Positions 21,811 through 39,290 of a DNA stretch of 64,000 nucleotides are shown here, in pieces (position 1 is the stretch's first letter; the number at the start of each line of letters is the position of its first letter). The notes beneath the pieces are model-generated. The model had not been told where the DNA came from. It saw only the letters and a program-made list of their open reading frames with translations, and did no database searches. The stretch is from Acidihalobacter aeolianus (GTDB lineage Bacteria; Pseudomonadota; Gammaproteobacteria; DSM-5130; Acidihalobacteraceae): contig NZ_CP017448.1 of assembly GCF_001753165.1 (NCBI RefSeq), positions 62,001 through 126,000 on the forward strand, given 5' to 3'. The position numbers were made by a program, and so were the translations under genes.

Positions 21811-22077
21811 CTGCAGCCCCGAGTTGCCAACCTATTAATTGGATCATCTGGGGTAGGCTTGGTTTGCGTATTTCGGCGCAACGTGACCGGTCATTTCGCT
21901 CGAACGTGACCGCCCGTTTCGGATCAACGTGACCGGCCATTTCGTTTGATCGTGACCGATTTCGGCTCTTTTTCCGAAATCGGCGGTCACGTTCCTCCGT
22001 CATCTCATCCAAGCCACTGGAATTCTTTCACTTATTCCGGCACAACCGCGCTCCTTTGCTCACTCAAGGAGACAGCG

Positions 22078-23616
22078 GTGCCGGCAGCGAGGATTCCAAT
22101 GAAGCATGTCATCGAGGTGCTGCGCCTCAAATACGCAGCCCAACTCAGCCACGCGCAGATCAGCCGCGCCTGCGGCCTGTCCAAGGGCGCGGTCAACAAG
22201 TACGTCAACCTGGCCAGGGCTCAAGGCATCACCTGGCCGTTGCCTGCGGACATGGACGAGGCCGCCCTGGAGGCACGTCTGTTTCCCGCCAAGGCGCCCT
22301 CGAGCCGGTTCGTCGTCCCCGACGGCTTCCAGATCCATCAGGAACTCAAGCGCAAGGGCGTGACCCTGCAACTGCTCTGGGCCGAGTACTGCGCCGCGCA
22401 CGGCGAGCGCGCGTACGCGTATACCCAGTTCTGTCACCATTACCGGCAGTGGCGAGAGCGGCAGAAGCGCAGCCTGCGCCAGCACCATCAGGCCGGGGAA
22501 AAGGTCTTCATCGATTACTGCGGGCCCACGGTCGACATCGTCGACCGTCACACCGGCGAGGTGCGTACCGCACAGATCTTTGTCGGCGTGCTCGGGGCCT
22601 CCAGCTACACCTATGTCGAGGCTACCTGGACCCAGTCGCTGCCCGACTGGATCGCCTCCCACCAGCGCATGCTGGGCTTCTTCGGCGGGGTGCCGGCGCT
22701 GCTGGTGCCGGACAACCTCAAGGCGGCGGTTCAGCGCGCCGAGCGCTACGCGCCGCAGCTCAACGCCACCTATGCCGAGATGGCGGCGCACTACGGCACC
22801 GCCGTGCTGCCGGCGCGGCCCTACAAGCCCAAGGACAAGGCCAAGGTCGAAGTGGCGGTGCAGGTGGTCGAGCGCTGGATCCTGGCGCGGCTGCGCCACC
22901 ACCGCTTCTTCTCGCTGGCCGAGTTGAACCGGGCCATCGCCGCGCTGTTGCCTGAACTGAACGAGCGGCTCTTCCAGGGTCGCACCGAGAGCCGTCGCGA
23001 CCTGTTCGAGAGCCTCGATCGGCCCGCGCTGCGCCCGCTGCCGGGCGAGGCTTACGTCTACGCCGAGTGGCGACGCGCCCGGCCCGGCATCGACTACCAC
23101 GTCGAGGTCGACAAGCGCTGCTACAGCGTCCCGCATGCCCTGGTCGGCCAGGTGCTGGACCTGCGCATCACCGCCACCACGATCGAGGTGCTGCACCGGG
23201 GTCAGCGCGTGGCCCTGCATCCGCGCCACCACGGCCCGGGCCGCTACGTCACCGTCACCGAGCACATGCCCAAGACCCATCAGGTGCACCGTGACTGGTC
23301 ACCCAAGCGCTTCCTGCGCTGGGCGAGCCAGATCGGCCCCAGCACGGCCGAGGTGGTACGCCGCCAGCTGACCGACCGGCCTCATCCGGAGCACGGCTAC
23401 CGCGCCTGCCTGGGGCTGCTCAGCCTCGCTCGGCGTTACCGCCCGGCGCGCCTGGAGGCGGCCTGCGCTCGAGCCTTGGCCATCGACTCGGCCCGTTACC
23501 AGAGCGTCAAGTCGATCCTCGCCCGCGGCCTTGACCAACAGCCCCTCGATCAGAGCCCGGCCCAGGAGGCACTGCCCCTGCACGCCAATGTCCGCGGCGC
23601 CAACTACTATCACTGA
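22078..23616 (+). CDS. istA: IS21-family transposase IstA
   Basis: A 512-residue DDE transposase. An N-terminal helix-turn-helix (LSHAQISRACGLSKGAVNKYV) is followed by the integrase core. The core begins at KVFIDYCGP (first Asp) and continues through VPDNLKAAV (second Asp) to KPKDKAKVEVAVQVVERW (catalytic Glu). GTG 22078 is selected because AAGGAGA precedes it and it gives the family's usual MPAxRIPMK opening. Works with IstB to transpose the element. Confidence 0.93.
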   Translation: MPAARIPMKHVIEVLRLKYAAQLSHAQISRACGLSKGAVNKYVNLARAQGITWPLPADMDEAALEARLFPAKAPSSRFVVPDGFQIHQELKRKGVTLQLLWAEYCAAHGERAYAYTQFCHHYRQWRERQKRSLRQHHQAGEKVFIDYCGPTVDIVDRHTGEVRTAQIFVGVLGASSYTYVEATWTQSLPDWIASHQRMLGFFGGVPALLVPDNLKAAVQRAERYAPQLNATYAEMAAHYGTAVLPARPYKPKDKAKVEVAVQVVERWILARLRHHRFFSLAELNRAIAALLPELNERLFQGRTESRRDLFESLDRPALRPLPGEAYVYAEWRRARPGIDYHVEVDKRCYSVPHALVGQVLDLRITATTIEVLHRGQRVALHPRHHGPGRYVTVTEHMPKTHQVHRDWSPKRFLRWASQIGPSTAEVVRRQLTDRPHPEHGYRACLGLLSLARRYRPARLEAACARALAIDSARYQSVKSILARGLDQQPLDQSPAQEALPLHANVRGANYYH

Positions 23617-23629
23617 GGAGCTCCACGCC

Positions 23630-24373
23630 ATGCTCAATCAACAGACCCGCCAACAGCTGCGCACCCTCAACCTCACCGGCATGCTCGCCGCCCTCGAGCA
23701 ACAACAGGGCCAACCCCAGACCCATGCGCTGTCCTTCGACGAGCGCCTCGCCCTGCTCATCGAGCACGAGGTGCTGCACCGCGAGAACCGACGCCTCACC
23801 CGCCTGCTCAAGGCCGCCCGCCTGCGCGTGCCGGCCTGCGTCGAGGACATCGACTACCACCACCGCCGGGGCCTGGAAAAGCCCCGCATGGCCCAACTGG
23901 CCAGCCTCGACTGGATACACCAGGCACTGAACCTGTGCCTCACCGGACCGACCGGCTGCGGCAAGACCTGGCTCGCCTGCGCACTGGGCAATCAGGCCTG
24001 CCGGCGCGGCCTGTCGGTGCGCTACCTGCGCCTGCCGGCGCTGTTCGAGCAGCTGCGCATCGCCCACGGCGACGGCTCCTACGTCCGGCTCATGGGCCAG
24101 CTCCTCAAAACCGACCTGCTGATCCTCGACGACTGGGGCATCCAAAAGCTCAACACCGCACAGCGCAACGACCTGATGGAAGTCATCGAGGATCGCCACG
24201 GCCGACGCTCCACCCTGATCGCCAGCCAGTTGCCTATCGAACACTGGCACGACTACCTCGGTGAAGCCACCCTGGCCGACGCTATCCTCGACCGCCTCCT
24301 GCACGGCTCACACCGACTCAACCTGACCGGCGAGTCCATGCGCAAGATCCAGGCTCCGGTTGACGGATCGTGA
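23630..24373 (+). CDS. istB: IS21-family helper ATPase IstB
   Basis: A 247-residue AAA+ protein related to DnaC. Walker A is GPTGCGKTWLA near residue 110, Walker B LLILDDWG, and sensor residues follow (LIASQLPIEHW). IstB assembles on DNA and directs IstA to targets. The gene begins 14 bases after istA, with a GAGGAG ribosome binding site inside that gap (ATG 23630). Both proteins are full length. Confidence 0.93.
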   Translation: MLNQQTRQQLRTLNLTGMLAALEQQQGQPQTHALSFDERLALLIEHEVLHRENRRLTRLLKAARLRVPACVEDIDYHHRRGLEKPRMAQLASLDWIHQALNLCLTGPTGCGKTWLACALGNQACRRGLSVRYLRLPALFEQLRIAHGDGSYVRLMGQLLKTDLLILDDWGIQKLNTAQRNDLMEVIEDRHGRRSTLIASQLPIEHWHDYLGEATLADAILDRLLHGSHRLNLTGESMRKIQAPVDGS

Positions 24374-24749
24374 CCGCTCAGGATAGAAAAACCACTCCAG
24401 TGCGCAACCAATGAGAGCAGCGGTCACGTTCACCGAAATCGGCGGTCACCTTCGACGAAATGCGCATGGTTCACGTTTTCACACAGCCTGGGTCGGAAAC
24501 GGAACGTCCGATAACCTTAATCGGCAAGCTTTCCTTTAGCTCGTTCAAATTAACCGGCGATTTTCTACCCCCTTATTGCCTTGCCTCGCGGGGATGCGAC
24601 TGATTGGGGTCGACCCGGAGGACCCGGGCCGAGCAGCCCGCGCCCGGACGGCGCTTGGCTGCGGCCGCGACCAGACGTATTCACGCGAGGTTGCCCGTAG
24701 GGCCAAGGCGATCCGGGCGAATTTCTTTGGTGACTTTCTTTGTTCGTCC

Positions 24750-26453
24750 GTAACTACTCAGCTAATTCTCAGAGATCGCCAGAGCAAAAGCCGGTAGCTT
24801 GCGATCGAATACTAGGCGCAACGCCTCCGAAGCCGTGACCCCCTGCTTTCGGCAGGTCGATAGATATCCCCGTATGCGGCAAAACATCGCGGCACCCTCC
24901 AGGCTGCGGAAGCAGCCGGAGATCTTCTGCTGCACTTTGGTCATACGGATATCGTTCTCCGCCTGATTGTTCGTGAACGGCACATTGACGTCCACCATGA
25001 AACGCAGCACATCGTCTTCATAGGCCATCAGACGCTCCAGCAGATTGCGGGCCTTGCTCCGCTTGATCCGCCCCCGAGGCTTGTTGTCGGGTGGTTTTTC
25101 CGGCTCAGGGCATTCCAGTTGCCCCGCCTCGAGCACATCTCGGTAGCGCTGCCGGTAAGCATTGGCCTCGGTCAGCGGCAGGATGCCGCCAGCGTTCTCG
25201 ACGGCCTGATGAATCTCTCTGAGCAGCTTGCCCATCGCTTCCGCCCATTGTTGTCCGTCCTGCTCGAATGCTCGTTCCAGTTCGCGCAGGTGGTGGGCAT
25301 TGCACAGGGCATGGGTGCAGTCCCGATAACGGTAATAGGGTTTCCAATGGTCATGACACAGCACACCGCGGAACCGTGGCAGGATCCCGATCGCGTCCAT
25401 CGCCTCCTGGCCTCGCTTACTGTGGACCTGATAATGCGTCCAATCAGCATTGGACAGAGCATGCAGCCAATGGCGTTTGCCATCAATGTTGACCCCGGTC
25501 TCGTCGGCATGAGCGGACACGGCTTTGGCCAATGCCGTTTTGCTGATCGCCTCAAAGGCCGCCAGGCGGGTAAATGCCTCGCGATTGAAGTTCACCAGTG
25601 AACCATCGCTCAAAGGGATGCCCAACTGATCGGCAAAGTAATCCTGGATCCGCTTGTAGGGCAAGAGCTGATATTGGGACAGATAGACGGCATGGGCCTT
25701 GAGGCCGGAACCATACTGCACCTTCTTATCCACCCCTTCCGGGAATGAAGCCACAAAACGTTGGCCTGATTCATTCTCCAGGATCTGCGCCCGATACTCG
25801 GTCACGATCCGGCTGATGTCGATATCAAAAACCTGGCGAGTCTCGAAACCCGCCTCGGTATAGCAGCCTTTCGGCAAGCGACGACGATCGATCTTGAGGA
25901 CCTCGATCTCATCGGGATGCTCGACCGGGCGCAAGGTCTTGCCCACGTGCCCCGGCTGGCCACCGGAAGGTCGGCTTGAGCGCACACGCTGGCTGCGTGG
26001 CCGATTGGGATCCGATGCCGGCGGCTGACTGCTGTTGCGGCTATTGAGCCCGAGACGGTTGAGTAACACGACGAACAACATGAGCATCATCTCGATACTG
26101 GCGCGGAGTGCCGGAGATAGGTCTTTCTCCTGCTCCAGTTGCGCCCTGACCTGTGCCAGGGTGATCTCGATATCGACGCCGTCGATCCGCACGCAAGACT
26201 GCTCCAAAGAAGTAATGAAGCTATTATCTCACGGGTTTTGAAGTGCCAATTTTCTCGTTTGTAAGGCGATCTGGCGGCGTAAAATAATTGACTGACGGTG
26301 GGGCAGTGCCTCGCGTGATGTCGCAAGGAAGACTACGCCTCTGTCGCTTTCGGAGACCAATAATCGCACTCGTTACAGCGCCGCCATATTTTCAAAAAAA
26401 CTACCAAAAACCCTGTCAAGTACTTTTTGTAATTATTTTCACTGAGTAGTTAC
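24750..26453 (-). mobile_element. Complete IS66-family insertion sequence (1704 bp, single-gene type)
   Basis: Perfect 12-bp terminal inverted repeats GTAACTACTCAG (24750-24761) and CTGAGTAGTTAC (26442-26453). An 8-bp target duplication GTTCGTCC (24742-24749 and 26454-26461), the size usual for IS66. It has only the large transposase gene and no tnpA/tnpB, as in the ISBst12 subgroup. All parts are intact. Confidence 0.92.
24762..26207 (-). CDS. IS66-family transposase (TnpC)
   Basis: A 481-residue DDE transposase. An N-terminal helical leucine-rich segment and a basic region SSQPPASDPNRPRSQR precede the catalytic core. The core includes SAHADETGVNIDGKRHW (first Asp), GVLCHDHWKPYYRY (second Asp) and FTNNQAENDIRMTKVQQK (catalytic Glu), with the IS66 C-terminal FRSLEGAAMFCRIRGYLST motif. 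It ends right at the left terminal repeat. It is intact, so the element is potentially mobile. Confidence 0.94.
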   Translation of the reverse strand: MEQSCVRIDGVDIEITLAQVRAQLEQEKDLSPALRASIEMMLMLFVVLLNRLGLNSRNSSQPPASDPNRPRSQRVRSSRPSGGQPGHVGKTLRPVEHPDEIEVLKIDRRRLPKGCYTEAGFETRQVFDIDISRIVTEYRAQILENESGQRFVASFPEGVDKKVQYGSGLKAHAVYLSQYQLLPYKRIQDYFADQLGIPLSDGSLVNFNREAFTRLAAFEAISKTALAKAVSAHADETGVNIDGKRHWLHALSNADWTHYQVHSKRGQEAMDAIGILPRFRGVLCHDHWKPYYRYRDCTHALCNAHHLRELERAFEQDGQQWAEAMGKLLREIHQAVENAGGILPLTEANAYRQRYRDVLEAGQLECPEPEKPPDNKPRGRIKRSKARNLLERLMAYEDDVLRFMVDVNVPFTNNQAENDIRMTKVQQKISGCFRSLEGAAMFCRIRGYLSTCRKQGVTASEALRLVFDRKLPAFALAISEN

Positions 26454-27997: not shown

Positions 27998-28762
27998 ATG
28001 ACGAAGCAAGAAGATTCGAAGTTGGGCGCAAGCGGCCTGAAACTGGTGTCGCCGGTCCCGCTGTATGGCCAGATCAAGGACATGCTGCGCAAGAAGATTC
28101 TCGACGGCAGTTACCCCCCGCACAGCAAGCTGCCTTCGGAAAGCGAGCTGATGGCGCTGTTCGACGTCAGCCGTATCACGGCGCGCCAGGCGATCCGCGA
28201 TCTGCAGAAGGAAGGCCTGGTGTTCACCATCCAGGGCAAGGGCAGCTTCGTCACCAAGCCGAAGGCGGTGCAGGACCTGACCCGCCTGGAAGGCTTCGGC
28301 GAGGCGATGAACAGCAAGGGCTACGAGACCTATTCGCGGCTGATCGGCGCCCGCGAGGTGCCGGCGAGCAGCGAGGTGGCGCACGCCCTGAAGGTGAGCC
28401 GCGACACTCCGGTGATCGAGATCGAGCGCGTGCGCTATCTGAACCGTTCGCCGATCTCGCTCGACGTCAGCTACTTCACGCTGGACGTCGGCCGCCGGCT
28501 GATGGACGAGGATCTGGAGACGCGCGACATCTTCGTGATCCTGGAAAACGACTACGCCTTCCCGCTGGGTGCGGCGGACATCGTGATCAACGCGGCGGTG
28601 GCCGACGAGAAGGAGGCCGAGCTGCTGGCCGTCGAGGCCGGCGCGCCGATCCTGCGCATGGAGCGCCTCACCTTCACCCAGGACGGTCGTCCGATCGACT
28701 ACGAGCACCTGTACTACATCGGTGACGCCTACCAGTACCGCCTGCGCGTCGAACGACGTTAA
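27998..28762 (+). CDS. HutC/FarR-type GntR regulator of the AprAB-like locus
   Basis: A 254-residue regulator. The N-terminal winged helix is SKLPSESELMALFDVSRITARQAIRDLQ with the wing TIQGKGSFV. A UTRA effector domain follows (VIEIERVRYLNRSPISLDVSYF..., ending in YYIGDAYQYRLRVERR). UTRA domains bind small ligands such as histidine-derived, sugar or phosphonate-type metabolites and release DNA. It is the first gene of the locus. Three motif copies at promoters of the locus are its probable operators. The ligand is presumably the imported compound or a product. Confidence 0.9.
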   Translation: MTKQEDSKLGASGLKLVSPVPLYGQIKDMLRKKILDGSYPPHSKLPSESELMALFDVSRITARQAIRDLQKEGLVFTIQGKGSFVTKPKAVQDLTRLEGFGEAMNSKGYETYSRLIGAREVPASSEVAHALKVSRDTPVIEIERVRYLNRSPISLDVSYFTLDVGRRLMDEDLETRDIFVILENDYAFPLGAADIVINAAVADEKEAELLAVEAGAPILRMERLTFTQDGRPIDYEHLYYIGDAYQYRLRVERR

Positions 28763-28781
28763 TTCAAGCGAGGTAACGTTC

Positions 28782-30521
28782 ATGAATGCCCCAACAACGC
28801 CAGCAGAAATCTTCGATACGGACATCCTGGTCATCGGCGGCGGCACGGCGGGCCCGATGGCCGCCGTGGCCAGCAAGGAGCGCAACCCCGAACTGCGCGT
28901 GACGCTGCTCGAAAAGGCCAACGTGAAGCGCAGCGGCGCGATCAGCATGGGCATGGACGGGCTGAACAACGCCATCATCCCCGGCCACGCGACGCCCGAG
29001 CAGTACGTGAAGGAAATCACCGTGGCCAACGATGGCATCGTCAACCAGAAGACGGTGATGGCCTACGCGAAGCGCAGCTTCGACATGATCAACAAGCTGG
29101 ACAGCTGGGGCGTGAAGTTCGAGAAGGACGAGACCGGCGACTACAGCGTGAAGAAGGTCCACCACATGGGCACCTACGTGCTGCCCATGCCGGAGGGCCA
29201 CCACATGAAGAAGATCCTGTACCGCCAGCTGCGCCGCAAGCGCGTCGACGTGGTCAACCGCTTCGTGGTCACCCGTCTGCTCAAGGACGCCAGCGGGCGC
29301 ATCGCCGGCGCGATGATGGTGAACAGCCGCACTGCCGAGATCGCGGTGATCCGCGCCAAGGCGGTGATCCTGGCGACCGGCGCGGCGGGGCGTCTCGGCC
29401 TGCCCGCCTCCGGCTACCTGTTCGGCACCTACGAGAACCCGACCAACGCCGGTGACGGCTACAGCATGGCCTACCGCGCGGGCGCCGAGCTGTCGGGCAT
29501 CGAGTGCTACCAGATCAATCCGCTGATCAAGGACTACAACGGCCCGGCCTGCGCCTACGTGACCGGCCCGCTGGGCGGCTACACGGCCAACTCCAAGGGC
29601 GACCGCTTCATCGAGTGCGACTACTGGAGCGGACAGATGATGCTGGAGTTCTACCGCGAGCTGGAAGGCGGCAAGGGGCCGGTGTTCCTCAAGCTCGACC
29701 ACCTGGCCGAGGAGACGATCCAGGAGATCGAGACCATCCTGCACAGCAACGAGCGCCCGAGCCGCGGTCGCTTCCACGCGCAGCGCGGCACCAACTACCG
29801 CGAGCGCATGGTCGAGATGCACATCTCCGAGATCGGCCTGTGTAGTGGCCACAGCGCGTCCGGCGTGTGGGTGGACGAGAACGCGCGCACCACGGTGCCG
29901 GGGCTGTACGCCGCGGGCGACCTGGCCTGCGTGCCGCACAACTACATGCTCGGCGCCTTCGTCTACGGCGAGATCGCCGGTCACGACGCGGCGGATTACT
30001 GCGCGAGCGTGGACATGCCGGTGCTCGACGAGACCGAGGTCGCCGCCGAGGCCGCGCGCATCCAGGCCCCGCTGAAGGTCGCCGACGGCATCACGCCGTA
30101 CCAGATGGAGTACAAGCTGCGCCGCATGGTGAACGACTACCTGCAGCCGCCGAAGGTCACCACCAAGATGGAAATCGGCCTCGACCGCTTCATGGAGATC
30201 CGCGAGGACATGGCCATGCTGGCCGCGTCCGACCCGCACGACCTGATGCGCGCGATGGAGGTGCACGCCATCCTCGACTGCGCGGAGATGGCCGCACGCG
30301 CCTCGCTGTATCGCACCGAAAGCCGCTGGGGCCTGTACCACTATCGCGTCGACTATCCCGAGCGCAACCAGGACGACTGGTTCTGCCACGTCCAGGTCAA
30401 GCAGGGCGAGAACGGGGACATGACCTGCTTCAAGCGTCCGATCGACCCCTACGTGGTCGAGCTCGACGAGGACGAGACCCAGGCTTACGACAACCTGCGC
30501 ATCGCCGCCACCGCACAGTAA
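28782..30521 (+). CDS. AprA-like flavoprotein (fumarate reductase/APS reductase alpha superfamily)
   Basis: A 579-residue FAD protein. The dinucleotide-binding motif is DILVIGGGTAGPMAA. The stretch KRSGAISMGMDGLNN corresponds to the AprA motif RSGAVAQGLSAIN of dissimilatory APS reductase, ATGAAGRLGLPASG is an FAD-binding turn, and GLYAAGDLACVPHN is the second FAD contact. The C-terminal helical domain ends in a GLYHYRVDYPERN...WFCHVQVK segment that parallels AprA's YYYRGDF...W.C. It is paired with an AprB-like ferredoxin 15 bases downstream. A divergent AprAB-like enzyme is the best description. True APS reduction or oxidation is unproven, since catalytic residues cannot be checked without alignment. 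GAGGT precedes ATG 28782. Confidence 0.85.
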   Translation: MNAPTTPAEIFDTDILVIGGGTAGPMAAVASKERNPELRVTLLEKANVKRSGAISMGMDGLNNAIIPGHATPEQYVKEITVANDGIVNQKTVMAYAKRSFDMINKLDSWGVKFEKDETGDYSVKKVHHMGTYVLPMPEGHHMKKILYRQLRRKRVDVVNRFVVTRLLKDASGRIAGAMMVNSRTAEIAVIRAKAVILATGAAGRLGLPASGYLFGTYENPTNAGDGYSMAYRAGAELSGIECYQINPLIKDYNGPACAYVTGPLGGYTANSKGDRFIECDYWSGQMMLEFYRELEGGKGPVFLKLDHLAEETIQEIETILHSNERPSRGRFHAQRGTNYRERMVEMHISEIGLCSGHSASGVWVDENARTTVPGLYAAGDLACVPHNYMLGAFVYGEIAGHDAADYCASVDMPVLDETEVAAEAARIQAPLKVADGITPYQMEYKLRRMVNDYLQPPKVTTKMEIGLDRFMEIREDMAMLAASDPHDLMRAMEVHAILDCAEMAARASLYRTESRWGLYHYRVDYPERNQDDWFCHVQVKQGENGDMTCFKRPIDPYVVELDEDETQAYDNLRIAATAQ

Positions 30522-30536
30522 CCAGGGAGCACCGAC

Positions 30537-30770
30537 ATGCCGCTTGCCCAGACCAAAACCAGCGTTCCGGTCATCGTGGACAACGAAAAATGCATCGCCG
30601 ACAAGGGGTGCACCGTATGCGTGGACGTCTGCCCGCTGGATGTCCTGGCGATCGATCTGCTCATCAACAAGGCCTACATGAAGTACGACGAGTGCTGGTA
30701 CTGCACGCCGTGCGAGGCCGACTGCCCGACCGGGGCGGTGACGGTGAACATTCCCTATCTGCTGCGCTGA
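30537..30770 (+). CDS. AprB-like two-cluster ferredoxin
   Basis: A 77-residue protein with two CxxC-type cluster motifs: CIADKGCTVCVDVCP and CWYCTPCEADCP. The second closely parallels the C-W-E-C-Y-S-C motif of the AprB beta subunit, and the odd spacing in the first is also AprB-like. It lacks AprB's C-terminal wrapping tail, so it is a minimal beta subunit. It very likely forms a complex with the preceding flavoprotein and passes its electrons on. AGGGAG lies 6 bases before the ATG. Confidence 0.87.
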   Translation: MPLAQTKTSVPVIVDNEKCIADKGCTVCVDVCPLDVLAIDLLINKAYMKYDECWYCTPCEADCPTGAVTVNIPYLLR

Positions 30771-30779
30771 GAGGTCGCC

Positions 30780-31733
30780 ATGGCCATGCTTTTCGATACT
30801 TCCCCGGACCTTGAGGACATCCGCGAGCGGCTGCAGAGCGAGGATGCCGCGGTGCGCCGCATGGCGGTGCTCAGCATCGGCGAGACGGCCGACCCCGATG
30901 CCGTCGGGCTGCTGGTGCAGGCGCTCGGCGACGCGGACGCGGACGTGCGCGCCGAGGCGGCGCGCGTGCTCGACGAATTCGACACGGTCGACGGCGTCGA
31001 GGCGCTGATCGCCGTGCTGTCGGATACGGACGAGGCGGTGCGCACCTCGGCCGCCGAGACGCTGTCCGAGATCAAGTCGCCGGAGGCGGCGCCGTTTCTG
31101 TTGCGCGGCCTGGCCACGCACGACCCCTTCGCCAAGGCCGCGCTGCTGCGTGCGATCAAGCCGCTGCGCGTGCGCGATGCGCTGGAGCCGGCGATGAACG
31201 CCCTCGGCAGCGGCAACGTGCAGGTGCGCCGCGAGGCGGTGGGCGTGCTGGCCTACCTCAAGTCGGAGACCGTGCTGCCGGCGCTACTCGACGTGGCGCG
31301 CAACGACCCGGACGCGCAGGTGCGCCGCGCGGCGGTGGGCGCGCTGGTGTTCGCCGACGGCGGCCGCGTGCGCGAGACCCTGGTGTATGCGCTCACCGAT
31401 GTCGACTGGCAGGTGCGCGAGGAGGCCGCGCTGGTAATCGGCCGCCTGCACGTCGGCGACGCCGTGGACGCGTTGATCGACGCGCTGGACGACGACTACT
31501 GGCAGGTGCGTCAGAAGGCCGCGTGCAGCCTGGGGCAGCTCGGCAATCCGGCCGCGGTGGATGCCCTCGGTGCCGCCTTCGCGCATCCGATCAGCAACCT
31601 GCGCAAGGAAATCGTCGGCGCGATGGGCGAGATCGCGGACGCCGCAGCGACGCCGTATCTCGAAGTCGCGCTCACCGACGAGGACCCGGACGTGCGCAAG
31701 CTGGCGGCCTGGGCGCTGAGCAAGATCGGCTGA
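30780..31733 (+). CDS. HEAT-repeat protein of the AprAB-like locus
   Basis: 317 residues made of about ten consecutive HEAT/PBS-lyase-type repeats of some 31 residues (for example [20 protein letters not shown], and [20 protein letters not shown]). No signal peptide and no cysteines for a cluster. HEAT solenoids bind proteins or cofactors. Here, embedded between two ferredoxin genes and starting 9 bases after the first, it is probably an assembly or docking factor for the redox complex. This is an inference. Two tryptophan-centred repeats (VDWQVRE, YWQVRQ) are the most distinct. Confidence 0.88.
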
Positions 31734-31794
31734 ACGCCCCCCGGATGGAACGAACCGCCACGGCGACGTGGCGCAACTGCAAAGGACCGAAGAC

Positions 31795-32136
31795 ATGACG
31801 TACGTGGTGACCGACAACTGCATCCGCTGCAAGTACACCGACTGCGTGGACGTGTGCCCGGTGGACTGCTTCCACGAGGGGCCGAATTTCCTGGTGATCG
31901 ATCCGGCGGAGTGCATCGACTGCTCCCTGTGCGTGCCCGAATGCCCGGTGGATGCGATCTACGCCGAGGGCGACCTGCCGGACGAATTCGCCGATTTCAT
32001 CAAGATCAACGCGGACCTCGCCGGGCGCTGGCCGGTCATCGCAGCCAGCCAGGAACCGCTGCCGGAGGCGGAGCGCTGGGCCGAGGTGGAAGGCAAGCGA
32101 CAATTTCTGGAGCTGGGCGACTCTGTCGACGTCTAA
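31795..32136 (+). CDS. FdxA-type 7Fe ferredoxin
   Basis: A 113-residue ferredoxin with one [3Fe-4S] and one [4Fe-4S] site: [18 protein letters not shown] and [16 protein letters not shown]. The C-terminal extension ([19 protein letters not shown]) is typical of FdxA. It is likely the soluble electron carrier between the AprAB-like pair and the large flavoprotein encoded next. ATG 31795 follows AAAGGA. Its TAA stop overlaps operator copy 2. Confidence 0.92.
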
Positions 32137-32151
32137 CATATTATGACAAGT
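32136..32151 (+). promoter_or_regulatory. Operator copy 2, before the large flavoprotein gene
   Basis: ACATATTATGACAAGT differs from copy 1 (27952-27967) at two positions, and the flanking A and TA match as well. It contains TATTAT in the register where copy 1 holds its -10 box. It lies 36 bases ahead of the 1148-codon gene and overlaps the ferredoxin stop, so that gene may have its own regulated promoter. Confidence 0.6.
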
Positions 32152-32186
32152 AATGCCGTGAGGTCCGGCCGCGCGAGAGGTGCTCC

Positions 32187-35100
32187 ATGGAACAGGTGTT
32201 GACACTGAACTTGCCCGGATTCGGGTACGAGGATCTGTACCGTGCGGAACGTCTGCCGGCGCTCGACCGTGCGTTCGCGACGTATCTTGAGGCCCATGAC
32301 GCGGAGCTGGCGGCGAGCTTCGCGCGTTATCGCGCGCAGGCGGCGTTCGAGGCCGGTGCGGAGTCGGAGCTGCTGATTGCCGTCGCCGGGGTGCTGGAGG
32401 ATTTCATCGCCGAGGTCTTCGGCGTGCGTCGCGAGTGCGACGCGCTGGGCGGACATGCCGGCAGGAGCGCGCTGGTGTGGGCGTTCAAGAACGACTTCGT
32501 GAAGCGCAGCCTGCAGGCCGCCGGCGACGCGCAGGCGCACGACTTCGCGGCGCTCGACGCCTGCGTGGACGCCTGGCTGGGCGAGGTCGGCGGCGCCGAC
32601 CGCGAGTACGCGGTGGCGCAGCTGTGGCGCCATGCGGCGGACGCGGGCGACGAGCAGCGCATCGCCACCCTGGCGGCCTGGGTGCGTGCGGCGGCCACCT
32701 GTGAGGCCGGTCGCGCGGCGACCGCCGGCTGGGGCAGTTTCCGTTTTCCGGCGAGGCGCGATTTCGCCGCGCTGGTGCGCACCGAGTTGCAACCGGCGGC
32801 CCGCGGCTGCGGCGTGGAGGTGAAGCCGGCGGCGCGCCGGCAGCGCGACGGCTTCGCGCTGACCGATATGCGCTACGCGCGCGGCGAGGTGCTCGATCAG
32901 GTGCATTACTGCAAGTTCTGCCATTCGCACCAGGGCGATTATTGTTCCAAGGGCTTTCCGGGGAAGGGCGAGGAAAAGACGCGCAGCAATCCCCTGGGCG
33001 TGCCGCTCGAAGGCTGCCCGCTGGAGGAGAAGATCTCCGAGGCCAATGCGCTGATGCGCGACGGCCACACCCTCGGCGCGCTGGCCACGATCATGATCGA
33101 CAATCCGCTGGTGCCGGCGACCGGGCACCGCATCTGCAACGACTGCATGAAGAGCTGCATCTACCAGAAGCAGGACCCGGTCGACATGCCGCAGATCGAG
33201 ACGCGCATCCTCGACGACGTGCTGAACCTGCCCTGGGGCTACGAGATCTATTTCCTGCTCACCCGCTGGAATCCGCTGAACCGCGAGCGCCCGTACACCC
33301 TGCCCTATCACGGCACCGACGTGCTCTGCGTGGGCGCGGGCCCGGCGGGCTTCAACCTGTCGCATCACCTGCTGCAGGCGGGCTTCGGCGTGGTCGGCGT
33401 GGACGGCCTCAAGATCGAGCCGCTGCCGGCGGATCTGACCGGCGCCGACGGGCGGACGCCGCGGCCGGTGCGCGAGGTGGCGGCGCTGCGCGAGTCGCTG
33501 GACGAGCGCGTGATGGCGGGTTTCGGCGGCGTGGCCGAGTACGGCATCACCGTGCGCTGGGACAAGAATTTCCTCAAGATCATCCACCTGACGCTGGCGC
33601 GCAGCCGGCACTACCGGCTGTACGGCGGCATCCGCTTCGGCGGCACGCTGACCATCGACGATGCCTGGGACTACGGTTTCGAGCACATCGCGCTGGCCAT
33701 CGGCGCAGGCCGGCCGACCATCGTGCCGGTGAAAAACCATCTCGCCCGCGGCATCCGCCAGGCGAGCGATTTCCTGATGGGCCTGCAGCTGACCGGCGCG
33801 GCCAAGCGCGCGAGCCTGGCGAACCTGCAGGTCCGCCTGCCGGCCGTGGTGATCGGCGGCGGGCTGACCGCGATCGACACCGCCACCGAGGTGCAGGCCT
33901 ATTACATCCGCCAGGTGGAAAAGCTGCTCGAACGCTGCGAGACGCTGGGCATGGCCGCGGTTGAGCGGACGCTGGACGGCGAGGAAGCGGCCATCCTGGA
34001 AGAATTCCTCGCCCACGGTCGCGAGGTCAAACGCGAGCGCGAGCGCGCGCGGCGGCTGGGCGTCGCACCGGATTTCGCCGGGCTGGTCGACCGTTGGGGC
34101 GGCGTCACCGTAGCCTACCGGCGGCGCATGGGCGATTCGCCGGCGTATCTGCGCAATCACGAGGAAATCGAAAAGGCGCTGGAGGAAGGCATCCGCTATG
34201 CGGAGGGCCTGAATCCGCGCGAGGCGCTGGTGGATCGCAACGGCCACGTGCGCGCGATGGTCTTCGACGGCGCGGACGGCGAGCGGGTGGATCTGCCCGC
34301 GCGTGCCGTGCTCATGGCCGCGGGCAGCGTGCCCAACACCAGCTACGAGCGCGAACACGCGGACACCTTCGAGATGGACGGACGCTTTTATGCGGCCTAT
34401 GGGCTCGACGGCGAACGCGCCGCGGCCGGCGACCGCGAGGCGGTGTTCACCTCCTACCGCAAGGACGGCCGGCGCATTTCCTTCCTGGGCGACAACCATC
34501 CCGTCTACAGCGGCAGCGTGGTGCGCGCGATGGCCTCGGGCCGGGCGGGAGCGCGGGCGCTCGTGCGCCTGTTCGCGGAACGCATCGGCGACGGCGGATA
34601 CGCGACGAAGTGGGATGCGCTGTGCGCGCGGCTCGACGAAAACCTGCGCCCGCGGATCGTGGCGGTGACGCGCCTGGCCGAGCATCTGGTGAGCATCGCC
34701 GTGCATGCACCGCAGGCCAGCCGCAACTGGCAGCCGGGGCAGGTCTACCGGCTGCAGAATTTCGAGACGCGGGTGGCGCGCGGCCTCGGCACCGCCCTGC
34801 AGATGGAGGGCATGGCGGTGGACGGCGTGCAGGTGGACAAGGCGCAGGGGCGCATCCATCTGCTGATCAACGAGGTGGGCACTTCCAGCCGGCTGGCCGG
34901 TGCCCTCGCCGCGGGCGATCCGGTGGTCCTGATGGGCCCGACCGGCACCTCGCTGCCGATGCCGGCGGGCCAGACGATCACGGTGATCGGCGGACATTCC
35001 GCGGTGACCAGCATGATCGACGGCAGTCACGCCTGGAAGGAGGCGGGCAACCGCGTGCTGATGGTCGCGCACCTGGCCGAACGCCAGCGCGCCGGGGCGC

Positions 35101-35633
35101 TGCAGACGCTGGTGCAGGAAGCGGCCGACGAGGTCGTGTGGGTGCTCGACGGCGACGAGCCGCTGGACGGCCTGCGCGCGCAGGACCGCTGCGTCACGGG
35201 TGGCATGGCAGCCTATCTGCGTGCGGTGGCGGCAGAAGGCGGCGACACCGGCGGGTGGGTCGAGGCCAGCGACCAGTTCGTGATTTCCGACCGACCGGAC
35301 GTGATGGACCTGCTGGTGACCGCGTTCAAGGGCGATCTGGCCGCGCGGCTCAAGCCCGGGGCGCACGGCACCGCCGTGGTCAACAGCCCGATGCAGTGCA
35401 TGCTCAAGGAGGTCTGCGCGCAGTGCCTGTGCCAGCACCGGCGCGGCGACGACCCCGACGCTGCGCCGAAGACCGTGTTTTCCTGCTTCAACCAGCACCA
35501 GCCGCTGTTCGACGTCGATTTCGACAACCTGCGCCTGCGCCAGCGGCAGAACGCGCTGCAGGAGCGCATCGCCTCGCTGTGGCTGAGCCACGTGCAGTCG
35601 TCCGCCCCCACGGCGCTGGCCGAGTCCCGCTAG
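32187..35633 (+). CDS. Large Nfn/GltD-like flavoprotein oxidoreductase, 1148 residues
   Basis: A multidomain electron-transfer protein. Residues 1-230 have no recognised domain. A cysteine-rich section with HYCKFCHSHQGDYC (near 240) and GHRICNDCMKSC (near 315) resembles the Fe-S domain of GltD/NfnB. A two-dinucleotide reductase domain follows, with VGAGPAGFNLSHHLL near 380 and VIGGGLTAIDTATE near 557. From about 820 an FNR/PyrK-like domain has VIGGHSAVTSM near 934 and a C-terminal CMLKEVCAQCLCQ iron-sulfur motif. It looks like an NfnB-NfnA-type fusion that could move electrons between NAD(P)H and ferredoxin, perhaps by bifurcation. A strong terminator follows. Partners are probably the ferredoxins upstream. 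Confidence 0.82.
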   Translation: MEQVLTLNLPGFGYEDLYRAERLPALDRAFATYLEAHDAELAASFARYRAQAAFEAGAESELLIAVAGVLEDFIAEVFGVRRECDALGGHAGRSALVWAFKNDFVKRSLQAAGDAQAHDFAALDACVDAWLGEVGGADREYAVAQLWRHAADAGDEQRIATLAAWVRAAATCEAGRAATAGWGSFRFPARRDFAALVRTELQPAARGCGVEVKPAARRQRDGFALTDMRYARGEVLDQVHYCKFCHSHQGDYCSKGFPGKGEEKTRSNPLGVPLEGCPLEEKISEANALMRDGHTLGALATIMIDNPLVPATGHRICNDCMKSCIYQKQDPVDMPQIETRILDDVLNLPWGYEIYFLLTRWNPLNRERPYTLPYHGTDVLCVGAGPAGFNLSHHLLQAGFGVVGVDGLKIEPLPADLTGADGRTPRPVREVAALRESLDERVMAGFGGVAEYGITVRWDKNFLKIIHLTLARSRHYRLYGGIRFGGTLTIDDAWDYGFEHIALAIGAGRPTIVPVKNHLARGIRQASDFLMGLQLTGAAKRASLANLQVRLPAVVIGGGLTAIDTATEVQAYYIRQVEKLLERCETLGMAAVERTLDGEEAAILEEFLAHGREVKRERERARRLGVAPDFAGLVDRWGGVTVAYRRRMGDSPAYLRNHEEIEKALEEGIRYAEGLNPREALVDRNGHVRAMVFDGADGERVDLPARAVLMAAGSVPNTSYEREHADTFEMDGRFYAAYGLDGERAAAGDREAVFTSYRKDGRRISFLGDNHPVYSGSVVRAMASGRAGARALVRLFAERIGDGGYATKWDALCARLDENLRPRIVAVTRLAEHLVSIAVHAPQASRNWQPGQVYRLQNFETRVARGLGTALQMEGMAVDGVQVDKAQGRIHLLINEVGTSSRLAGALAAGDPVVLMGPTGTSLPMPAGQTITVIGGHSAVTSMIDGSHAWKEAGNRVLMVAHLAERQRAGALQTLVQEAADEVVWVLDGDEPLDGLRAQDRCVTGGMAAYLRAVAAEGGDTGGWVEASDQFVISDRPDVMDLLVTAFKGDLAARLKPGAHGTAVVNSPMQCMLKEVCAQCLCQHRRGDDPDAAPKTVFSCFNQHQPLFDVDFDNLRLRQRQNALQERIASLWLSHVQSSAPTALAESR

Positions 35634-35664
35634 ACACCTCTTTCCTCGTCGTTTCCCCCTTCTT

Positions 35665-35701
35665 CCCGCCGGTCACTGCGTGCGTGCCGGCGGGTTTTTT
35701 T
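35665..35701 (+). terminator. Rho-independent terminator after the large flavoprotein gene
   Basis: An 8-bp GC stem CCCGCCGG / CCGGCGGG followed by a run of seven T (35695-35701). It separates the oxidoreductase genes from the transporter genes, which have their own promoter region in the 392-base gap 35634-36025. Confidence 0.85.
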
Positions 35702-35898
35702 CGTGGTCGGATCCGATCGGCCGGCGTGGGCGGGGCCCGGTCCGGCCGCCGGCGGTGCGCGGGGCACAGAAACTGTGCGGATATGCACCGGGATCACCAA
35801 AGTGGGGCGCTCGCGGGCGGTCGTCTGCAGGGGCTGAATTCGGATTTATCCCAATAAAAAACAATCGCTTGGCTTCGATCAATCGAGGCGGACTTTAT

Positions 35899-35947
35899 TG
35901 GCACAATCCGTGCTGTCTTTTGATGACCTGTCCTGTTATGACATGTT
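35899..35947 (+). promoter_or_regulatory. Sigma-54-like promoter followed by operator copy 3
   Basis: TGGCACAATCCGTGCT (35899-35914) has the GG-N10-GC layout of a -24/-12 promoter, with one mismatch in the TTGC part. Copy 3 of the locus motif, AACATGTCATAACAGG on the minus strand, lies at 35932-35947, about at the expected start site and roughly 80 bases before the binding-protein gene. A repressor bound there would block transcription. The sigma-54 assignment is tentative. Confidence 0.5.
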
Positions 35948-36025
35948 GTCGGGAATTGAGGGGCGGTGGGCTTACGCCAGGGTTATAGACATCGTTTATT
36001 CGATCAATCTGGGAGGGTGTGTGTC

Positions 36026-37396
36026 ATGCGAATGCTTGGGAAAAACGGGGTGCGCGCGTCGCTGATGGCGCTTTGCGCCGCAGCAGGGGTCGCCGCGACG
36101 CCTGCGTACAGCAAGACGATCACGATCGGTATCGGCATCCAGAATATGTGCACCGACACGTATCAGGGCGGGACGATCATCCGCGGCCTCAAACTGCTGC
36201 CCAAGTATCTGCCGCACGACGGCAAGTACAAGGACGTCAAGTACAAGATCGTCTGGCGCAACTACGATTCGGGCGGCCCGATCACCAACATGATGATCGC
36301 CGGCAAGCTCGCGTTCGGCGTGATGGGCGATTACCCGCTGGTGGTCAACGGCGCGAAATTCCAGCAGACACGCGGCGAGCGCTCGCTGATGATCTCGTTC
36401 ACCGCCTACAACCTCGACGGCGCCGGCAACGGCATCGTGGTGCCGGTGAAGTCCGACATCTACAGCGTCGATCAGCTCAAGGGCAAGACCGTGTCGGTGC
36501 CGGTGGGCAGCGCGGCCTGGGGCATGCTCTTCAACATGATGAAGGAAAAGCATTACCCCAAGGATTATTTCCACATGATCAACCAGGGCCCGATGGTCGG
36601 CATCGCGGCGATCGCGAACGACAAGGTCGCCGCCCACGCGGACTTCTGTCCGATGTCCGAGCTGATGGAATACAAGGGCACCGGCCGCATGATCTACAAC
36701 GGCGCCGAGGCCGGCATTCCGTATCTGCACGGCGTGGTGGTGCGCAAGTCCTTCGCCGAGAAATATCCTGAAGTCGTGGTCGGTTATCTCGAGGCGCTGA
36801 TCAAGGCCGGCCAGTGGGTGCAGGACGATCCGCAGCATGCCGCGAAGATGATCTCGAAGTGGACGATGATCCCCAAGGAAGTGCTGTACCTGTACTTCAG
36901 CAAGGGCGGCTATCTGACCCCCGATCCGACCTTCAAGCCGAAGTTCATCAAGACCCTGGCCTACGATCACGAGGTCCTGATGAAGTACGCCAATATGCCG
37001 CCGCTCGACTTCAAGCCGTGGGTGGCGCCGCAGTATCTCAAGGCGGCCTACAAGAAGCTCGGTCTGAATTACGAGCAGCAGCTCAAGACCTTCTACCACC
37101 CGAAGGAAAACATCCATCTGCCCGACGAAATCTGGATCAACGGCGAGAAGATCCATCAGTACGCGAACGTGGCCGAGATGCTCAAGAGCTACGCGCAGTA
37201 CAAAAAGGCGGGCAAGACGATCGACGCAACCTACGTGTACGACCAGAAGACCGGTCTGAAGCTGTTCGGCAAGAACGCCTTCTACGTGGAGGACGGCAAG
37301 ACGTTCGATGCCTTCATGCTCAAGAGCGAGGCCGACAAGTACGCCAAGGCGCACGCGGGCAAGGTGATGACCTTCGCGGAGGTCACCAAGGCCTGA
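36026..37396 (+). CDS. ABC-transporter substrate-binding protein with NosL-like C-terminus
   Basis: A 456-residue periplasmic protein with a signal peptide (SLMALCAAAGVAATPAYS). The main domain is of the SsuA/NrtA/TauA type (IGIQNMCTDTYQGG..., KLAFGVMGDYPLVVNG, LKGKTVSVPVGSAAWGML), which binds sulfonates, nitrate, cyanate and similar anions. After about residue 370, a KLFGKNAFYVEDGK...AFMLKSEADKYAKAHAGKVMTF stretch resembles the NosL copper-binding/accessory fold. ATG 36026 has GGGAGGG ahead. The ligand is not evident. The company of an AprAB-like enzyme suggests a sulfur oxyanion or organosulfonate. Confidence 0.83.
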   Translation: MRMLGKNGVRASLMALCAAAGVAATPAYSKTITIGIGIQNMCTDTYQGGTIIRGLKLLPKYLPHDGKYKDVKYKIVWRNYDSGGPITNMMIAGKLAFGVMGDYPLVVNGAKFQQTRGERSLMISFTAYNLDGAGNGIVVPVKSDIYSVDQLKGKTVSVPVGSAAWGMLFNMMKEKHYPKDYFHMINQGPMVGIAAIANDKVAAHADFCPMSELMEYKGTGRMIYNGAEAGIPYLHGVVVRKSFAEKYPEVVVGYLEALIKAGQWVQDDPQHAAKMISKWTMIPKEVLYLYFSKGGYLTPDPTFKPKFIKTLAYDHEVLMKYANMPPLDFKPWVAPQYLKAAYKKLGLNYEQQLKTFYHPKENIHLPDEIWINGEKIHQYANVAEMLKSYAQYKKAGKTIDATYVYDQKTGLKLFGKNAFYVEDGKTFDAFMLKSEADKYAKAHAGKVMTFAEVTKA

Positions 37397-37405
37397 TCTG
37401 AATGC

Positions 37406-37434
37406 GGGCCGGCGGGAGGTTTCTCCGCCGGCCC
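37406..37434 (+). terminator. Intercistronic hairpin after the binding-protein gene
   Basis: A 10-bp perfect stem GGGCCGGCGG / CCGCCGGCCC without a T-run, just after the binding-protein stop. Such hairpins commonly protect the upstream message or attenuate read-through, so that binding protein exceeds membrane components. Confidence 0.6.
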
Positions 37435-37502
37435 GGACGGGCAAAACGGCTGCGGCGGCGTCCGCAGCCGTCGTACCTCACGCAGCGATGACGGGTGATG
37501 CA

Positions 37503-38348
37503 ATGAGCAGCGATGTGCAGACGGATTCCAACATGGTCGTGCGCAAGTTATTCGACCTCGACCGGGAGATGGTGCTGGAGCGGCTGAAGCGCCATTCCAT
37601 TCAGGTGCTCTCCCTGGTCGTCGGCGTGGTGATCTGGCAGATACTGACCGTCAAGGGCGTGCAGTTCATCCTGAATTTCAACAATCTGCCGACACCGGTG
37701 CAGGTCGGGCAGCAGTTTTACCAGCTGATCGGCACGAAGACGTTTTATATCGATATCGGCACCAGTCTGCGCCGTATCGGGATTTCGTTTCTGTTCGCGG
37801 TCGTGATCGGCATGACGGCGGGCATCGCGATGGGGCGTTCGCGCCTCGCGCGCGACATCATCTTTCCCTACATCGAAATCCTGCGCCCGATTCCTGCGGT
37901 GGCATGGATTCCGCTGTCGATCATCATGTGGCCGACCAACGAGGCCAGCATTCTTTTCATCACCTTCCTGGGTGCGGTGTTTCCCATCGCCATCAACACC
38001 ATGCAGGGCGTGCAGCAGACCCCCGAGCTGCTGATCCGCGCGGCGGCCACGCTGGGCGCGAAGCGCTTTTCCGTGCTGCGCCACGTGATCCTGCCGTCGG
38101 CGCTGCCGAGCATCTCGACCGGGCTTGCGGTCGGTATGGGCGTTTCCTGGTTTTCGCTGCTCGCCGGCGAAATCATCAGCGGCCAGTACGGCATCGGCTA
38201 TTTCACCTGGGAATCGTACGAGCTGATCCGCTACCCGGACGTGGTCGTCGGCATGGTCACGATCGGCGTGCTCGGCACGCTGTCGACCAGCCTGGTACGC
38301 CTGGCCGCGCGGCTGCTGCTGCGCTGGGTGCCGCCGGAACAGCGCTGA
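37503..38348 (+). CDS. ABC-transporter permease (SsuC/NrtB/TauC family)
   Basis: A 281-residue inner-membrane permease with about six membrane helices and the EAA-type cytoplasmic loop LLIRAAATLGAKRFSVLRHVILPSALP that contacts the ATPase. It closely follows the sulfonate/nitrate permease pattern (LRPIPAVAWIPLSIIMW; LLAGEIISGQYGIGYF). Two ATGs (37488 and 37503) are possible starts, and neither has a strong ribosome binding site. It forms the importer with the flanking genes. Confidence 0.9.
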   Translation: MSSDVQTDSNMVVRKLFDLDREMVLERLKRHSIQVLSLVVGVVIWQILTVKGVQFILNFNNLPTPVQVGQQFYQLIGTKTFYIDIGTSLRRIGISFLFAVVIGMTAGIAMGRSRLARDIIFPYIEILRPIPAVAWIPLSIIMWPTNEASILFITFLGAVFPIAINTMQGVQQTPELLIRAAATLGAKRFSVLRHVILPSALPSISTGLAVGMGVSWFSLLAGEIISGQYGIGYFTWESYELIRYPDVVVGMVTIGVLGTLSTSLVRLAARLLLRWVPPEQR

Positions 38349-38387
38349 TCCCCGCTCCGTCCACGCATCGAACCGAGAGACGCGACG

Positions 38388-39290
38388 ATGAACAATTCAC
38401 CGCAGGTGGTAGCCTTGAACGCCAAACACGAACACGCGCAAGCCGCTCACCGCAACGGCAAGTTTTTCCAGGCCGCGATCACCCTGGACGAGGTCTCGGT
38501 CGCCTTCGGTCCCGAGAAGCGCAGGAAGACCATCCTGTCCTCGCTGACCATGCACGTCGAGCCGGGCGAATTCGTGGCCCTGCTCGGCCCAAGCGGCTGC
38601 GGCAAGTCGACCGTGCTCAACCTCGTCGCCGGCTACCTGAAGCCGAGCACCGGCGCCGTGCTGGTGGACAGCAAGCCCGTGGCCGGGCCTGATCCGCAGC
38701 GCGGGATGGTGTTCCAGCAGCACACGCTGTTTCCGTGGAAGACGGTGCAGGAAAACGTCGAATTCGGCCCGAAGATGGCCGGTCAGCCGAAGGCGACCGC
38801 CGAGGCCACGGCGCGCACCTTTCTCGACATGGTGGGTCTCAGCAAGGTCGCCGACCACTATCCGTCGCAGCTCTCGGGCGGCATGCAGCACCGCGTGGAG
38901 ATCGCGCGCGCGCTGGCCAACTATCCGGGTGTGCTGCTGATGGACGAACCCTTCGGCGCGCTCGACGCGCAGACGCGGCTGGTGATGCAGGACGGTCTGC
39001 TCAAGCTGTGGGAACAGCTCAAGCCGACGGTGCTGTTCGTGACCCACGACATCGACGAGGCGGTGCTGCTGGCCGACCGCATCCTGATCATGGGCGTCTC
39101 GCCCGGCCGGGTGATTTCCGAGATCGAGGTCGACATCGAGCGTCCGCGCAACGTGCGCGCGATGACCGATCCGCGTTTCGGCCGCCTCAAGGGTCAGTGT
39201 CTGGACCTACTGGAGCGCGAGAGCCGCAAGGCCTTCGGCCTGCAGGACGACGACGATACGGACGACGAGGCCAGCCCGCTGCGCGCGTAA
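38388..39290 (+). CDS. ABC-transporter ATPase (SsuB/NrtD/TauB family)
   Basis: A 300-residue ATPase with Walker [13 protein letters not shown] near residue 70, Q-loop [11 protein letters not shown], signature [15 protein letters not shown], Walker [14 protein letters not shown] and switch [15 protein letters not shown]. An acidic C-terminal tail ([10 protein letters not shown]) follows. It is the last gene of the locus, 39 bases after the permease. An importer with this ATPase type usually takes up sulfonate, nitrate, cyanate or bicarbonate-like anions. Confidence 0.93.

Follow-up and report, generated by a model that had tools for sequence, protein, structure and literature searches.

Fused homologues of the Nfn flavoproteins, in arrangements designated patterns B, C and D, have been described by Liang et al. 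2019 (PMC6405883), among which Pattern C, with its NfnA part at the C-terminus, occurs in Actinobacteria and Proteobacteria and was stated to be uncharacterised (PMC6405883). Individual residues have been assigned in better-described members of the group: the bifurcating FAD of T. maritima NfnB is bonded at N5 by Arg187 (PMC6405883), and in P. furiosus NfnL the proximal cluster has E126 as its Glu ligand (PMC9503767); bifurcation itself cannot be told from sequence (PMC6405883). Another P. furiosus enzyme, NfnII, has been reported to have NAD-independent ferredoxin:NADP+ activity along with a divergent NADH domain.

The stretch of the Acidihalobacter aeolianus genome analysed here (the window, 64,000 nucleotides) contains at 32187-35633 (+) an intact open reading frame, with an ATG start and a TAG stop, for a single-chain Nfn-like flavoprotein of 1148 aa that we refer to as NfnBA. 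A 91% identical copy in a same-genus genome marks it as a true gene and not a chance reading frame, and tblastn confirmed at least 578 relatives in a scan of 84,980 species genomes. Nearly all of the matches listed span the full length, and among them are sequences from Proteobacteria, Acidobacteria, Planctomycetes, Chloroflexi, Bacteroidota and Myxococcales. These hundreds of relatives, together with the published fused homologues (PMC6405883), take away the novelty that a preliminary description of the window had seen in a one-chain Nfn. An antisense frame of 1152 aa covering the whole gene (32133-35591, -) was rejected as a by-product of high GC; longest-ORF calling favours antisense frames in GC-rich loci, where genes were called by tblastn and codon-position GC instead. 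Scans for promoters and terminators returned no more than chance.

Domain anatomy and cofactor residues

Two modules are fused in NfnBA, an NfnB-like part (residues 187-800) followed by an NfnA/PyrK-like part (823-1120), so that the single chain with an Nfn-like double module anticipated in the preliminary description is borne out by sequence and by an AlphaFold2 model (mean pLDDT 89.1, pTM 0.91, from a 50-sequence alignment). The NfnB-like part comprises an Fe-S domain at residues 213-345 (32823-33221, +), with C242, C245, C253, C277, C317, C320, C324 and E338 and two predicted [4Fe-4S] clusters, and GltD-like FAD and NADP(H) domains at residues 375-800 (33309-34586, +), assigned from sequence and model; a long helical insertion is modelled at ~568-636. 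Residues 187-798 of the model superpose on P. furiosus NfnL (5jfc_L) with Z 28.9 and rmsd 2.2 A over 432 aligned residues at 27% identity. An FNR module of the NfnA/PyrK-like type follows at residues 823-1010 (34653-35216, +), identified by sequence and fold match, and the modelled C-terminal part reaches a TM-score of 0.85 (by target) against NfnS, giving it the NfnA/FNR-type fold on which the original assignment depended. Pfam recognises only Pyr_redox_2 and a sub-cut-off piece of Fer4_20 along the chain.

Residues 1-180 (32187-32726, +) form an all-helical domain that is predicted at high confidence, with pLDDT mostly above 90, whether modelled alone or in the whole chain. A fold search of the PDB gave nothing usable (Foldseek best E 4.9, VIA best Z 4.0), a sequence search of the PDB gave no match, and no Pfam family was found in the 47 members scanned, which yielded single chance matches only. 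The N-terminal region was initially thought to resemble nothing known, and for PDB and Pfam this holds, but the domain is shared with NCBIfam NF005128/PRK06567, which matches NfnBA from residue 23 on and is collinear with residues 23-963 (579 bits, below its cut-off of 1072). NCBIfam models of NfnA/NfnB fusions match more weakly than NF005128, and GltD models match weakly.

Eleven Cys are invariant in 79 aligned sequences, seven of them N-terminal (242, 245, 253, 277, 317, 320 and 324) and four C-terminal (1071, 1077, 1080 and 1100), as are Glu338, which aligns with E126 of P. furiosus NfnL, and Arg457, which aligns with Arg187 of T. maritima NfnB. The spacing of the clusters in the Fe-S domain departs from the canonical Nfn motif. 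Judged by its residues, with seven Cys, Glu338 and Arg457 in place, the NADPH-to-ferredoxin branch is predicted to be complete in outline.

The C-terminal half is different. The iron-sulfur motif CMLKEVCAQCLCQ noted at the outset is present at residues 1071-1083, and the four Cys of the cluster (35397-35486, +) are joined in the clade of operon-linked sequences described below by an extra Cys1082, which occurs elsewhere in few other sequences. The ERxPxT strand, which in NfnA binds the NfnA FAD, is absent across the family (the window protein reads EGMAVD here and most relatives read EGLALT, with EG[LM]A shared by most members), and where the Nfn-type [2Fe-2S] cluster has an Asp ligand (DGTGMCGxCR), each of the 79 sequences has Cys. 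In the operon clade the nucleotide motif GGGLGNAV is altered as well, to GGHSAVTS in the window (residues 935-942; 34989-35012, +) and to GGHSAVT, with variants GGPSAVT and GHRAAFT, in the clade as a whole, whereas GGGLGNA or a form related to it stands in most solitary relatives; His1104 also takes the place of an Asp in this clade. The NfnA-like half is kept but altered, and its role as an NAD+ branch has probably been lost. Loss of ERxPxT, substitution of the Asp ligand and, in the operon clade, loss of GGGLGNA make classical NAD-linked bifurcation unlikely, and a protein that lacks two residue features of bifurcating NfnA should not, on this reading of its motifs, be filed as a bifurcating Nfn. 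A lost motif is nonetheless no proof that NAD binding has gone, and sequence is an unsafe guide to NAD specificity.

A conserved operon in which NfnBA, Rnf and Fpr alternate

NfnBA lies within a nine-gene operon (27998-39290, all on the + strand), called from strand, spacing and conserved gene content. A GntR/UTRA regulator (27998-28762), whose place is conserved in operon loci, is followed by an AprA-like flavoprotein of NF006131/PRK08275 (28782-30521; 1080.6 bits, cut-off 587), a small AprB-like ferredoxin of 77 aa (30537-30770), a HEAT-repeat protein (30780-31733), similar to a HEAT part that is fused to the flavoprotein in NF010374, and the ferredoxin FdxA (NF045490, 31795-32136; 161.6 bits, cut-off 135). 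Downstream of NfnBA are an ABC substrate-binding protein of NMT1/SsuA-like type fused to a NosL domain (35966-37396), an ABC permease (37488-38348) and an ABC ATPase (38388-39290). The C-terminal fusion of NosL to a binding protein of this type is an unusual pairing, and might be a clue that the ligand is linked to a metal or a thiol. A connection of the operon to the organometal system 'Sao' had been considered from weak ABC matches and was rejected, all of them being below cut-off. A literature search found no paper describing the operon.

The nine genes of the window recur in further loci (L003-L005, L007-L010, L073, L095, L096 with L140, and L099), and genes of the operon are found in Thiobacillus, Halothiobacillus, Hydrogenophilales and other proteobacterial genomes, with NfnBA mostly last. 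The 15 operon-linked NfnBA sequences group in a single clade (FastTree, local support 100); one genome (G030) has both forms, and its solitary copy is the sister of the operon clade. Most other relatives are solitary, with no operon genes nearby. Dedication to one locus, as originally suggested, is therefore a property of the operon clade, and does not extend to a family that is spread widely and whose genes are mostly solitary. A Mu/rve-type integrase and an IS66 transposase lie immediately upstream of the operon, at 21946-26207 of the window, and a same-genus genome (G002) has neither NfnBA nor the AprA-like gene; from these the operon looks accessory or mobile. In one locus (L096, 687-5540, -) NfnBA and the ABC ATPase are separated by an amidase-like gene, a second NMT1-type binding protein, a permease and an M20-like peptidase, assigned by eye, which hints that an amide compound might be processed close by.

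In the PDB, the AprA-like flavoprotein finds its best relative in the PAPS reductase alpha subunit from M. thermolithotrophicus (8a8o; PMC10322725). The flavoprotein scores 178.7 bits against the AprA model TIGR02061, far below the cut-off of 641.75, and canonical AprA was not found in the host genome. All 32 of 32 AprA-like sequences have Leu where A. fulgidus AprA has Arg265, which we take to be its catalytic residue. The low score and the Leu suggest that the substrate is probably neither APS nor PAPS, and gene order points to a compound that would be imported by the adjacent sulfonate-type ABC system. In the NF006131 sequences of the window and 31 other loci, a segment EC.QINPLIKDYNGP.CAYV is also strictly conserved, and a CSGHSASG motif is present. 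Beside the AprA-like module in several genomes is a small protein bearing Cys, which by eye could be DUF971-like (L122 4047-4331, -; L130 8492-8914; L131 7700-8053, -), the one copy scanned having no NCBIfam match.

Among 31 loci with an AprA-like gene, NfnBA is present in 11 (including L096, at ~10 kb), rnf in 2 and Fpr in 8, with none of these within the stretch covered in the other 10; two of the three are never found together (0/31). Where rnf is present, rnfABCDGE directly follows FdxA (L097, 12490-17600; L098, 12236-17362), and both genomes have a second rnfA elsewhere. These swaps point to a ferredoxin link for the AprA-like flavoprotein module, and offer a handle on an unnamed uptake-and-redox system of sulfur oxidisers and other proteobacteria.

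A corresponding pattern is seen for the solitary form. In an even but limited sample of 274 gammaproteobacterial genomes, solitary NfnBA occurs in 50 and Fpr in 86 (counted for the NF008178 type alone, with E up to 1e-20), and the two coincide in 3 of the 50 against 15.7 expected (Fisher p 2.9e-6); by genus, the level at which kinship was corrected, they coincide in 2/38 (p 2.1e-5). Solitary NfnBA and Fpr are, in large part, mutually exclusive. The genomes of this set that have the operon form only (G000 and G242) both also have Fpr. Taken with the replacement of NfnBA by Rnf or Fpr in the operon, the exclusion of Fpr by the solitary form is most simply read as the mark of a ferredoxin:NAD(P) reductase, housekeeping where solitary and dedicated in the operon of the window. 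A large family, often found where Fpr is missing, thereby gains a concrete proposal for its function.

Proposed electron flow and competing readings

We hypothesize that NfnBA, a one-chain member of the Nfn superfamily, acts as a pyridine-nucleotide:ferredoxin oxidoreductase that specifically serves its own operon, and regard this as probable, if some way from certain. NADPH would reduce the FAD of the NfnB module, from which electrons would pass through the proximal cluster (predicted to be held by three Cys and Glu338) and the distal [4Fe-4S] cluster to FdxA, the putative partner, then to the small AprB-like ferredoxin and on to the AprA-like flavoprotein, which would reduce the compound delivered by the adjacent ABC importer. 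Two observations weigh against this proposal. The 10 of 31 loci with no reductase nearby imply that the AprA-like module can draw electrons from elsewhere, and the host genome already has two Fpr-like genes, so that a further ferredoxin reductase would not be strictly needed.

The preliminary description had proposed a bifurcating or transhydrogenating enzyme. As a true Nfn-type bifurcating transhydrogenase, NfnBA would split the electrons of NADPH between ferredoxin and NAD+, the latter at the C-terminal module. Retention of both Nfn modules, of all clusters and of E338 and R457 is consistent with this, as is the GGGLGNA or related form in most solitary relatives; with ERxPxT changed to EG[LM]A, Cys for the Asp ligand in 79/79 sequences and the nucleotide motif gone from the operon clade, we nonetheless think it unlikely, and a non-NAD ferredoxin reductase the likelier function. 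A variant that sidesteps the missing NAD features would have operon-clade NfnBA bifurcate from NADPH to ferredoxin and to a high-potential acceptor other than NAD, for example the operon flavoprotein or the small ferredoxin, docked at the C-terminal four-Cys module, with the N-terminal domain coupling the two. The C-terminal module has been both retained and remodelled in the operon clade, and P. furiosus NfnII, likewise NAD-independent, is suspected of using another acceptor. If so, sulfur-oxidising bacteria that are mostly aerobic would have a bifurcation pairing that is new; we rate this reading as quite unlikely, given that Fpr, a simple one-FAD enzyme, takes the slot of NfnBA in other operons and that the acceptor itself is hypothetical.

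Electrons might also run the opposite way, with NfnBA passing them from ferredoxin back to NAD(P)+ as the flavoprotein oxidises its substrate. In principle Nfn, Rnf and Fpr are all reversible enzymes, and the exchange of NfnBA with Rnf and Fpr is compatible with either direction. The usual direction of Fpr and of proteobacterial Rnf is towards ferredoxin, however, and the operon bears no sign of a strongly reducing substrate, leaving reverse flow a rather improbable alternative. Least credible of all is a plain glutamate-synthase small-subunit-like protein (GltD): GltD models do match, if weakly, and GltD folds rank next to NfnL, but the extra N-terminal domain and the full NfnA-like module rule it out for practical purposes, in keeping with the ferredoxin, Rnf and Fpr context, and no GltB partner is found among the operon genes.

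NfnBA among the Nfn enzymes

Fpr and Rnf occupy the same operon place as NfnBA with other architectures, although Fpr shares the FNR fold with its C-terminal module. The nearest family model, NF005128/PRK06567, includes the N-terminal domain in its collinearity, with NfnBA scoring below the equivalog cut-off. PDB 9n5u 'NfnA' (963 aa) was considered as a single-chain relative and set aside, being a subunit of Thermococcus sibiricus NfnABC that matches only the NfnB part.

With the NfnAB/NfnSL enzymes (T. maritima 4ylf; P. furiosus NfnI, 5jca/5jfc) NfnBA shares the NfnB fold, two predicted [4Fe-4S] clusters with a Glu ligand, the N5 arginine, the NADP(H) domain and an NfnA-like FNR module with its cluster. 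It differs from them in being one chain in B-A order with a helical N-terminal domain, a helical insertion and a four-Cys C-terminal cluster, and in lacking ERxPxT and, in the clade of the window, the NAD motif. Among fused forms, NfnBA corresponds to Pattern C in its single chain, C-terminal NfnA, extra length and gammaproteobacterial occurrence, a match by domain order to the published description of a pattern whose type protein is from M. curtisii. Pattern C is distinguished by being ~200 residues longer than other fusions, and NfnBA is nearly 400 longer than a 757-aa pattern B fusion.

The best PDB sequence match of NfnBA is 5vj7, which we take to be P. furiosus NfnII/Xfn. NfnII is archaeal, consists of two subunits and has no N-terminal domain, yet by analogy it would be the best functional precedent for NfnBA, and the remodelled NAD half of NfnBA amounts to a natural experiment on what makes an Nfn bifurcate.
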